Assembly: GCA_937873155.1 (NCBI GenBank)
Contig: CALMVZ010000024.1
Coordinates: forward strand, 186,001 to 250,000
From: an uncultured Bacteroidota bacterium
GTDB taxonomy: Bacteria; Bacteroidota; Bacteroidia; B-17B0; Aurantibacillaceae
Reading direction: 5' to 3'
Length of the DNA stretch: 64,000 nucleotides
The notes below the pieces were generated by a model. It had not been told where the DNA came from. It worked only from the letters and a program-made list of their open reading frames with translations, and searched no databases. A program made the translations under genes and the position numbers. Of the stretch, positions 44,875 to 63,495 are shown in pieces. Positions within the stretch are counted from its first letter, which is position 1, and the number at the start of each line of letters is the position of its first letter.

Positions 44875-44939
44875 AGAGCCAAAAAATAGTTAAAAATATG
44901 TGGTATAAAGTTAGAAATTTTATTAATTTTGTTAGGTAT

Positions 44940-45902
44940 ATGAAAGTTACCAAAGTAATGAAAAAAGCAATACTATCTCTTTTTCTGGTTTTTTGTTTTT
45001 CAATGTCTTATTCCCAATGGTTATGGGATTATGGCTTTGCTGTTGGTGCTTCTAATTACTTAGGGGATATCGGCGGTAAAGAAAAAGCCCGCCGTGATTT
45101 CGTGATGGACATGAAACTTGCAAAGACCCGATGGAACGTTGGTGGTTTTGCCCGTTACAAATGGCGCCCGAAAGTATCCTTAAAATTAGCATTGGATTAT
45201 TTACGGATCGAAGGTGATGATAAATTATCATCGAACTTAGGCCGCCGTTACCGTAACCTTAATTTCCGTAACGATATGTTCGATCTTGCTTTTACAGGTG
45301 AGTGGTTCTTTTACGAGAATAACGATTTAGGAAATACCTACCGTTACCGTAATGGTTTCAGGGCTTATTTATTCGGAGGTGTTGGTGCTTATTACAGCAA
45401 CCCGAAAGGGTTCTATGATGGGGCATGGACAAAACTCCGTCCGTTACAGACTGAAGGCGTTTCTTATAAAAAATTTGGGGTGAACATACCTGTTGGTGTT
45501 GGTTTCTATTTTACTTTAGAAAAGAAACACAGGATCGGGTATGAGATCAACTGGAGAACAACATTTACAGATTATCTGGATGATATCAGTGGTAATTATC
45601 CTGATGCGACTCCGGGAAATTCTGCTACAGCAGATCTGTCTAACCGCAGTGATGAATTAGGAGCTGCAGGCCCGGTACAAGGTGAAGAAGGCGCATATTA
45701 TTATTTCATGAATCAGAATAACACACCCCGCTTTGCAGGACAAAAACGTGGTGATAAAACACATAATGATTCTTACATTACAATGAGTTTATCTTACAGT
45801 TATGTGATTCGTGGGAAGAGTTCGTTCTATCGCGGCCGTTACGGACATTTCTTCGGCAAACGTTCGAAGAGAAGAGTTCGTAAGATCCGTGCGAAATTCT
45901 AG
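44940..45902 (+). CDS. DUF6089-type outer-membrane beta-barrel protein
   Basis: A secreted barrel of about 320 residues. The most natural start is ATG 44940 or ATG 44958 (MKKAILSLFLVFCFSMSYSQ, a complete signal peptide); an upstream ATG at 44898 would add 14 residues before it. The mature part opens with WDYGFAVGASNYLGDIGG, the signature of this Bacteroidota barrel family, and contains alternating aromatic strands throughout. The C-terminal tail is very basic (GKRSKRRVRKIRAKF) and ends in Phe. Location is the outer membrane; function unknown. Confidence 0.8.
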   Translation: MKVTKVMKKAILSLFLVFCFSMSYSQWLWDYGFAVGASNYLGDIGGKEKARRDFVMDMKLAKTRWNVGGFARYKWRPKVSLKLALDYLRIEGDDKLSSNLGRRYRNLNFRNDMFDLAFTGEWFFYENNDLGNTYRYRNGFRAYLFGGVGAYYSNPKGFYDGAWTKLRPLQTEGVSYKKFGVNIPVGVGFYFTLEKKHRIGYEINWRTTFTDYLDDISGNYPDATPGNSATADLSNRSDELGAAGPVQGEEGAYYYFMNQNNTPRFAGQKRGDKTHNDSYITMSLSYSYVIRGKSSFYRGRYGHFFGKRSKRRVRKIRAKF

Positions 45903-46126
45903 CATTGTCTTCGACTCGCACTAGCTTAGCACAGGCTGCTCAGACAACGCTATAAAATATTGAAAGCCCTACTGAAAAGTGGGGCTTTTTTTTGTGGTTT
46001 CGACTCCCACGAGCATACACACAATCCGCTCAACCACCAAGTTTATAAATCAAAATGTGTTCAAGGAGTAAGCGGTGCCTGAGCAGGTTTGCGCAGAGCC
46101 TGTGCGAGTCGAAGGCACTGCTAAGA
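45903..46126. repeat. Cluster of three covarying hairpins around an intrinsic terminator
   Basis: Three hairpins share a loop that starts TCGACTC and ends GCTC, but each has a different stem. A (45905-45947): TTGTCT/AGACAA. B (45994-46037): GTGGTT/AACCAC. C (46075-46118, opposite strand): GTGCCT/AGGCAC. In each, one mismatched pair and then a few further pairs extend the stem (AGC/GCT in A and C, TT/AA in B). A and C form an inverted pair. Between A and B is the terminator at 45963-45993. Confidence 0.78.
45963..45993 (+). terminator. Intrinsic terminator with GAAA tetraloop
   Basis: An 11-base-pair stem AAAGCCCTACT / AGTGGGGCTTT (one T-G pair) closed by a GAAA loop and followed by T-rich sequence, 60 bases after the DUF6089 gene. 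Confidence 0.85.
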
Positions 46127-47356
46127 TCAAAGATCTTTCGGATAACATATATAATGCTTTGTAACCGGCTTACTTAATGCCTGCAGATTTAAAAGGTCAC
46201 TGGCAGCTGCCACATCAGCCAATTTGCCGTTGCTGTAAAGGATATTAATGCCCTGATCGCTGTTATTATAAGCGCTGTTATTCACCGATTCAGAGAAAAC
46301 AAAATAAGAAGCTTCTTTTCGGGAGATAGAATATTTTTTAGAAGCTTTATCTATCAGATTATTTTTTGTGGATGTCGCAATCGCCTCGTTCTGTAATTCT
46401 ATGCGGTATAAATTACGGTCCAGCAAATTCTTGCAAAGTGTACATAAAATAAAATCATCAGAATCTGCCCATGCTTTTACCGACGCCATAACATCATAAT
46501 CATCTAACTGTGCGAATTTCTCGAGTAATTCAGGTTTGTTTAAGAAATCTTCCTTAGTAAAATCGTTTTCCAGGAACAAACTAAAGGCAGGTGTTGCAAA
46601 TAATTTTGTTTTGGAGTTGCTTAGTTCTTTAGCCCTCCTTAATATGTTTATCAGAAGATTTTCTGCACTCAGAACAGTTTTATGAAGATAGACCTGCCAG
46701 TACATTAAACGGCGCGAGATCAAAAACTTTTCAATGCTATATATCCCTTTTTTCTCAACCACTAAATTATCTTTTACAACATTCAGTGTTTTAATGATGC
46801 GGTCGCTGCTGATGATACCTTCACTCACACCAGTAAAAAAACTATCGCGTTTCAAATAATCGAGACGGTCCATGTCGAGCTGTGAGCTCACTAACTGATG
46901 AAGGAATTTCTTGTTGTATTTATCGTTGAAGATCTTAATGGCCAGTGATAATTTCCCTTTGAATTCTTTATTCAAAGCATCCATTAATAAAGATGAGATC
47001 ACCTCATGGTTTACACCTTTTACAATACTGTGTTCTAATGAATGCGAAAAAGGACCATGTCCTATGTCATGCAATAAGATCGCAATTAAAGCGCCCCGGC
47101 TTTCTTCATCACTGATCTTTACATCCTTACTTTTTAAAACCTGTAAAGCCTCGCTCATCAAATGCATCGCGCCAATGGCGTGATGAAAACGTGTATGCAA
47201 AGCACCCGGATAAACCAAATTGGTAAGCCCTAATTGCTTTATACGGCGTAAACGCTGAAAATAAGGATGATTGATAAGCGCGTAAATAAGTTCGTCCTGT
47301 ATGGTCACAAAACCATAGATAGGGTCGTTGATTATTTTGCTTTTAAAAACGGGCAT
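46127..47356 (-). CDS. HD-domain phosphohydrolase (dGTPase/YdhJ-like)
   Basis: A 409-residue cytoplasmic HD-superfamily enzyme. The metal ligands are arranged as in dNTP triphosphohydrolase-like proteins: HTRFHHAIGAMHLM (54-67), then the HD pair at His96-Asp97 in LLHDIGHGPFSHSLEH, and QLDMDRLDYLKRDSFFTGV, whose Asp completes the site. The N-terminus KIINDPIYGFVTI is typical of the SAMHD1/YdhJ branch. Substrate (dNTP or other nucleotide) is not determinable. The gene is divergent from porX, sharing a short promoter region. Confidence 0.88.
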   Translation of the reverse strand: MPVFKSKIINDPIYGFVTIQDELIYALINHPYFQRLRRIKQLGLTNLVYPGALHTRFHHAIGAMHLMSEALQVLKSKDVKISDEESRGALIAILLHDIGHGPFSHSLEHSIVKGVNHEVISSLLMDALNKEFKGKLSLAIKIFNDKYNKKFLHQLVSSQLDMDRLDYLKRDSFFTGVSEGIISSDRIIKTLNVVKDNLVVEKKGIYSIEKFLISRRLMYWQVYLHKTVLSAENLLINILRRAKELSNSKTKLFATPAFSLFLENDFTKEDFLNKPELLEKFAQLDDYDVMASVKAWADSDDFILCTLCKNLLDRNLYRIELQNEAIATSTKNNLIDKASKKYSISRKEASYFVFSESVNNSAYNNSDQGINILYSNGKLADVAAASDLLNLQALSKPVTKHYICYPKDL

Positions 47357-63470: not shown

Positions 63471-63495
63471 GACCCTTCGGCAAAGCTCAGGGTGA
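63471..63495. repeat. Short hairpin of the covarying TCG...GCTC family
   Basis: Stem ACCCT (63472-63476) / AGGGT (63489-63493) around a loop TCGGCAAAGCTC that starts TCG and ends GCTC, the same boundaries as the three hairpins at 45905-46118. The stem sequence is different from all of them. Just after the DUF4197 terminator. Confidence 0.7.

Follow-up and report, generated by a model that had tools for sequence, protein, structure and literature searches.

Between two convergent genes of an uncultured Bacteroidota bacterium lie three hairpins whose stems differ from copy to copy around loops that begin and end alike. The original prediction, made on a stretch of 64,000 nucleotides (the window), read this as selection on structure, of the kind expected of REP-like elements or of structured RNAs, and counted a shorter fourth copy elsewhere in the window. 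Here we ask which part of the hairpins is constrained, whether they are better understood as DNA or as RNA, and how they come to lie directly behind stop codons. Throughout, G000 is the genome of the window, and G001, G002 and so on are its relatives.

Results

The convergent genes encode a DUF6089 protein (44898–45902, plus strand) and an HD-domain protein (46127–47356, minus strand), both assigned by Pfam. The 227-nt stretch between them (45900–46126, first stop codon counted in) holds hairpins A, B and C, all of a long-loop type. As read in the sequence, hairpin A (45905–45948, plus strand, stem TTGTCT/AGACAA) starts 2 nt past the stop codon at 45900–45902, and hairpin B (45994–46038, plus strand, stem GTGGTT/AACCAC) starts where the T tract of a terminator-like hairpin with a GAAA loop (45962–45989, plus strand) ends. 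Hairpin C (46074–46119, minus strand, stem GTGCCT/AGGCAC plus a 3' C, giving a CACC tail) lies 7 nt from the stop codon of the HD gene (46127–46129). The stems and loop ends first quoted for A, B and C are all present, and A and C are indeed opposite in orientation with the terminator-like hairpin between them. Three such hairpins are above chance expectation: the pattern TTCGACTC N{2,32} GCTCA has three matches in the 64-kb window versus 0.06 expected, and 0 of 100 shuffles contained as many. Taken one by one, not every copy has an unusually stable fold as single-stranded DNA (z of −0.58 for A, −1.63 for B and −0.11 for C, which prefers a different fold; −3.14 for L047, a copy elsewhere in the genome). 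The evidence for structure is therefore comparative.

The exact pattern occurs at 12 places in the genome. One of these (L002), a stemless chance match, was excluded before a covariance model was built from the other 11 copies, and with this model A, B and C, themselves in the training set, score 69.3, 64.1 and 61.9 bits. A search of the genome at E ≤ 1 returned 44 matches; 15 of them, the long-loop copies, score at least 46.7 bits and are set off by a gap from the next match at 27.1 bits. The genome-wide search proposed with the original prediction thus recovers a dispersed family. A scan of 100 genomes, run with stricter filters than the single-genome search, found the long form at E ≤ 1e-5 in five, this one included (15, 3, 7, 3 and 2 copies), that is, 15 additional copies spread over 4 of 99 relatives. 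Four of the five genomes share a genus and one belongs to the same family. Among named genomes, a stricter pattern hit six contigs, from Sphingobacteriaceae or Bacteroidia metagenome assemblies, and among viral contigs it hit no stretch. The open-licence literature yielded no description of this hairpin family, and searches for the core sequence and its translation returned nothing relevant by title.

Both sides of the stem do change together. Among the 11 copies, five of eight pairs carry double changes. Of 500 shuffles, which ignore the relatedness of copies, none reached the paired percentage or the covariation score, 7 had at least as many double-changed pairs and 95 at least as many further pair types. 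Over all 30 long copies, with shuffles that likewise ignore relatedness, 159 of 210 cells are paired (2000 shuffles: mean 120, maximum 139) and 40 are double-changed (mean 12.9, maximum 25). The copies are thus neither near-identical duplicates nor free of covariation beyond shuffled controls, and the predicted constraint on structure holds on both data sets. The mismatched pair outward of the stems, noted at first for the window copies, is a feature of the family: across the 30 long copies the sixth pair from the core is formed in just 7 and the seventh in 18. Overall, beyond a T-A pair the outer stem has about five pairs that covary; it typically reads GTGnnT/AnnCAC and is followed on the 3' side by a CACCG tail. 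Conserved bases TTCGR ... CTCA lie between the outer stem and the tip.

The claim that the loop ends are fixed gave way to a more structured picture. Two inner loop positions, left free in the search, pair in 119 of 126 rows versus a shuffle mean of 58.8 and maximum of 79, again with relatedness ignored. These rows were drawn from at least 150 matches, the 24 excluded being G002 rows, all C-G, and G026 (60 matches) and some other genomes lay outside the set. The pairing rows comprise 63 CG, 38 GC, 15 TA and 3 others, and more than one type occurs within single genomes, such as G114, G059 and G122. Since these positions covary as a pair family-wide, the loop ends first read as fixed belong to the structure. 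In the common form of the hairpin this inner pair closes an apical loop of 2 nt. RNA does not readily form a 2-nt loop closed by a pair, which suggests that the common form suits folded single-stranded DNA better than RNA. In the long subfamily the inner pair instead closes a loop of about 22 nt whose sequence is itself conserved and which holds two similar 8-mers (GCACAAGC / ACACAGGC), with a mean identity of 5.07/8 within copies and 5.28 between copies (base-shuffled maximum 2.93). In a separate genome, ten hairpins with a T..A inner pair stand in a row on one strand, many of them 79 nt apart (G047:C47:69460-70781).

The proposed fourth copy (63472–63493, plus strand) is real, yet it belongs to a sibling subfamily with short loops instead. 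That subfamily is marked by TTCGGC, a 3-nt apical loop, CCC/GGG and a TGAC tail, and the copy itself has the stem ACCCT/AGGGT and the apical loop AAA. Its pattern TTCGRCNNNGCTCA is not significant within the window, since 7 of 100 shuffles contain a match too, and as single-stranded DNA the copy has a z of −1.41 and prefers a different fold. Over the whole genome, the short pattern has 107 matches, this copy among them, versus 20 for a reversed control. Short siblings and long copies have stems and the CACCG tail in common. The short form occurs in 24 of 87 genomes, with 27 copies in G000, 33 in G002, 18 in G004 and none in G006 or G007. A cluster of three short hairpins, spaced by 60 and 120 nt, lies at G000:C10:469573-469765 (L212:3536-3898), within a probably spurious ORF of 121 residues. 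Collectively, these data describe a real, structured, REP-like family of DNA hairpins whose long-loop branch has its centre in a single genus.

The family is patchy between species. The window spacer contains such hairpins in G000, G002, G003 and G004. It measures 274 nt in G001 and has no hairpin of this type; in G006 and G007 it is 54 nt long and holds only a terminator-like repeat, which by eye is a similar inverted repeat with a T run. By the identity of one protein to that of this genome, the species with hairpins are the nearer ones (G002 92%, G004 90%, G003 89%) and those without are more distant (G006 85%, G007 84%, G001 81%). G002 and G003 carry short-loop hairpins at both window sites, with other, largely paired stems, and in G004 the site of A is short and that of C long.

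We extended this comparison to 24 further gene ends besides the two window sites, all chosen for having a hairpin in G000, using 80 hand-picked orthologous regions from G001, G002, G003, G004 and G006; G007 entered at the window spacer only and G005 was left out. None of 22 sites has a hairpin in G001, and in G006 a single one of 21 does. Seventeen sites have hairpins in at least two species, and the apical loop differs at nine of them; where a long copy is involved, five of seven sites hold a short loop in another species. Two more sites, L224+ (removed by a filter) and L238 (where a wrong loop end cost the long copy of G003), also differ in their loops by eye, which would raise these counts to 11/19 and 6/8. 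Summed over pairs of species, which are not independent observations, stem positions changed in 59 instances: 39 had changed on both sides and still paired, 4 had changed on one side and still paired, and 16 left one species unpaired, counts that slightly favour pairing because hairpins were accepted from two of five paired positions.

At two sites the flank and the partner hairpin can be aligned around a core that is different, which favours replacement in place: at L218 both G000 and G002 have a short hairpin, and at L228 a long one in G000 stands against a short one in G004. We tentatively propose, as a possibility with rather less than even odds, that resident hairpins are rewritten in this way, the core (inner stem plus loop of 2, 3 or 22 nt) being swapped and the site, outer arms and partner kept. 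It is a little more doubtful that the switched cores reflect an independent insertion in each species, the spaces behind stop codons being simply tolerant of inserts. Such insertion would fit the other palindromes that G002 has at these positions behind stop codons, L228 and L238 among them, and several of the remaining switching sites have flanks too diverged to favour either account; the alignable surroundings of L218 and L228 speak against it. At orthologous stop-adjacent sites in G002 (L253, L308, L315, L321) and G006 (L309), a TGTCATGTCGAGCGAAGTCGAGACA-like palindrome takes the place of the TTCGAC hairpin.

Some hairpins are nested. Three copies on one 12.6-kb contig (G000:C32, L201; 3151-3210, 4726-4785 and 7621-7680) have outer arms and a 3' end of the long type (GTGCCTTCGA ... 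CAGGCTGCTCAGGCAC), but where the loop would be they carry a short hairpin (TACTTCGGCATAGCTCAGTA). The partner hairpin at L228 is nested in both G000 (L228) and G004 (L307), with outer arms GTGGTT...CGAAACCAC around an inner hairpin that differs between the two genomes.

The position of copies in the genome was assessed on 93 hairpins, 31 of 124 pattern matches having been dropped for a weak stem or a second TTCG inside. Fifteen rows of this set are classed as long, two of them (L176, L201) being chance matches inside ORFs, and the set lacks L060, a true long copy, because it ends in ACTCA. When ORFs are called mechanically with a minimum of 80 aa, 81 of the 93 copies lie outside them and the copies are thus mostly intergenic. 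With the same mechanical calls, 35 of 60 copies that have a sense upstream gene lie 0–16 nt past its stop codon, and only 8 of 52 on the antisense side lie within 20 nt. A head-to-head partner is found within 180 nt on the 3' side of 39 copies, including 6 of the 15 rows classed long. Within 20 nt, partnered copies number 18 sense and 0 antisense, and a weaker bias persists among 45 singletons (16 sense versus 8 antisense). The sense bias is therefore largely, though not wholly, a matter of head-to-head geometry. A pair of hairpins also lies in frame inside an ORF for a PriA-type helicase (Pfam; L212:4605-7313 on G000:C10, hairpin at 472229), where it translates as VPSTSSG...VPELVEGTS.

The strong sense bias behind stop codons led us at first to read the hairpins as RNA elements of 3'-UTRs, selected in mRNA for protecting 3' ends or slowing terminating ribosomes. 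E. coli REPs at most 15 nt from a stop codon stall ribosomes, according to earlier work cited in the part of PMC12306157 used here. Also in favour of this reading, stop codon and stem at the L226 site have changed together, with TAGC/GCTA in G000 and TAAC/GTTA in G003. We demoted this reading because head-to-head geometry makes much of the bias, and now regard it as unlikely: the 2-nt loop of the common form is of a kind that RNA does not readily make, and the orthologous spacers of G001, G006 and G007 do without such a hairpin. Furthermore, an Rfam scan of the window gave no match over the gathering threshold; below it, the highest score across hairpin A and the terminator was that of Phe_leader (32.2 versus 55 bits, E 0.001). 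Of the two kinds of element first suggested, the REP-like kind is the one that the data favour, and a structured RNA is possible, although not preferred.

The REP-like nature itself is borne out by many dispersed, mostly intergenic palindromic copies and by inverted doublets as in REPINs; A and C flank a terminator. A link to RAYT transposases, also raised at the outset, found no such backing. No gene in this genome scores over the RAYT cut-off of 80 bits; its four Y1 genes reach 20.7–32.3 bits with that model and are all IS200-like (66–79 bits versus a cut-off of 55). In the family, 18 of 61 genomes have a RAYT over the cut-off, G001, G002 and G006 among them and the hairpin-rich G000 not. 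We compared the flanks of 60 Y1/RAYT loci (4 own, 26 in eight relatives and 30 from a longer RAYT list), some of which cover the same gene or are cut by contig ends, and saw no convincing flanking hairpins. Hairpins with fixed C..G loop ends occur beside 0 of 30 loci, and with free loop ends 3 of 60 loci have a match. L113 and L345, which are the same place in a genome, have one weak match about 280 nt away (3 of 5 stem pairs, TCCGGC start), which we take as chance, and L114 has two about 1.4 kb from the gene match. Other repeats of at least 13 nt, several of them palindromic, are common to both flanks at 29 of the 60 loci, so the comparison is able to detect flanking repeats, although it is a weak control for this genome's own four genes, among which only L014 (19 nt) has one. 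It is accordingly quite improbable that one of the four IS200-like Y1 genes mobilises the hairpins or that these are the ends of such an element, given that no hairpin of this type lies within 1.5 kb of any of the four, even though all four genes score above the IS200 cut-off and irregular hairpins are described as the usual substrate of such enzymes in the part of PMC8266576 used here.

Several RAYT loci (L094-L104) are bracketed by palindromes of their own, such as CGCGGATTTGTAATCCGCG or CCGCAGGATTTGTAATCCTGCGG. Two candidate identities were dropped: RAYT-linked REPs, as the copies do not convincingly flank RAYT/TnpA_REP genes at the loci compared and have no GT[AG]G at the hairpin foot, and integron attC sites, because of the R boxes of the latter.

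Discussion

Taken as a whole, hairpins A, B and C are best explained as REP/REPIN-like non-autonomous DNA hairpins that are probably moving or have moved, an explanation to which, judging from sequence comparison, we assign a probability of roughly 0.7. The hairpin would form in single-stranded DNA, and a putative trans-acting, HUH/Y1-like enzyme for single-stranded DNA, encoded elsewhere, would recognise its irregular middle and tail. If, as we propose, this enzyme does not closely read the apical loop, loop length would be free to be 2, 3 or 22 nt. Copies directly behind stop codons would be well tolerated, and resident sites could be overwritten by other copies, loop and inner stem changing together and arms sometimes being left mismatched. 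Covariation of the inner pair defines a precise structure for recognition, one that can be tested and that points to DNA folded as a single strand, and the differing cores at orthologous sites are a natural record of how such hairpins get renewed.

Several observations weigh against this explanation. The Y1/RAYT loci compared have no convincing hairpin flank, the folds of A and C as single-stranded DNA are not better than those of shuffles, and 16 of the 59 changed stem positions leave one species unpaired. Conservation of the loop sequence in the long subfamily is also unexplained by a loop-blind enzyme, except through copying.

Rewriting in place, if true, would imply a hairpin-templated conversion, for example an excised single-stranded hairpin annealing to a resident copy, in place of insertion into empty sites, and an enzyme new for REPs that have no transposase. 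The nested copies, both the three on C32 and the L228 partner in G000 and G004, would then be products of the same route.

For the recognition proposed here there is precedent, by analogy and not as a test of it, in the bulge and loop findings in the part of PMC8266576 used here. There, E. coli TnpA_REP requires an unpaired bulge and no loop bases are selected, and in a Marinomonas REP the loop bases T12 and A15 are drawn paired, with two bases beyond them at the tip. For two other REP systems the same source reports certain loop positions to be essential, so that loop freedom is not general.

Among known systems, the hairpins resemble GTAG REPs and REPINs, as these are presented in the parts of PMC3116915, PMC8266576 and PMC6006769 used here, in their hairpin form, inverted doublets, compensatory changes and dispersed intergenic copies. 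They differ in that no GTAG tag is present, the tail being CACCG and the tag CGGTG in most copies, in that they were not found flanking a RAYT gene, and in that the genome has no RAYT over the cut-off. They share a phylum and the lack of a GT[AG]G tag with the atypical structures that flank subclass 2.6 TnpA genes of Bacteroidetes (PMC6006769, in part); those structures lie beside the gene, whereas several of the RAYT loci analysed here carry other palindromes instead.

In position and arrangement the hairpins also resemble the CGTC REPs (Di Nocera 2013), which the part of PMC3733652 used here describes as short intergenic palindromes, mostly head-to-head dimers near gene 3' ends, with heterodimers of different stems or loops and with Bacteroidetes among their phyla. 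The same part of that source reports them without an associated transposase gene and treats REPs that have no dedicated transposase as an open problem. Our hairpins are likewise intergenic palindromes, arranged as head-to-head dimers near gene 3' ends, heterodimers included, and with no associated transposase gene. The tail is CACCG here (CGGTG on the other strand) versus CGTC, TGTC or CCTC there, and the apical loop has 2–3 or about 22 nt versus 4 or 5; in long or GTG-stem copies we saw no CGTC/TGTC/CCTC tag with A-T at stem positions one and two. The long-loop hairpins are set apart from the CGTC families by description, not by consensus sequences, within the portion of PMC3733652 used. TTCGGC siblings such as the copy at 63472, with a TGAC tail (GTCA on the other strand), come closer to the CGTC tag, and the long-loop hairpins are an unusual branch of a known kind of repeat, the REP.
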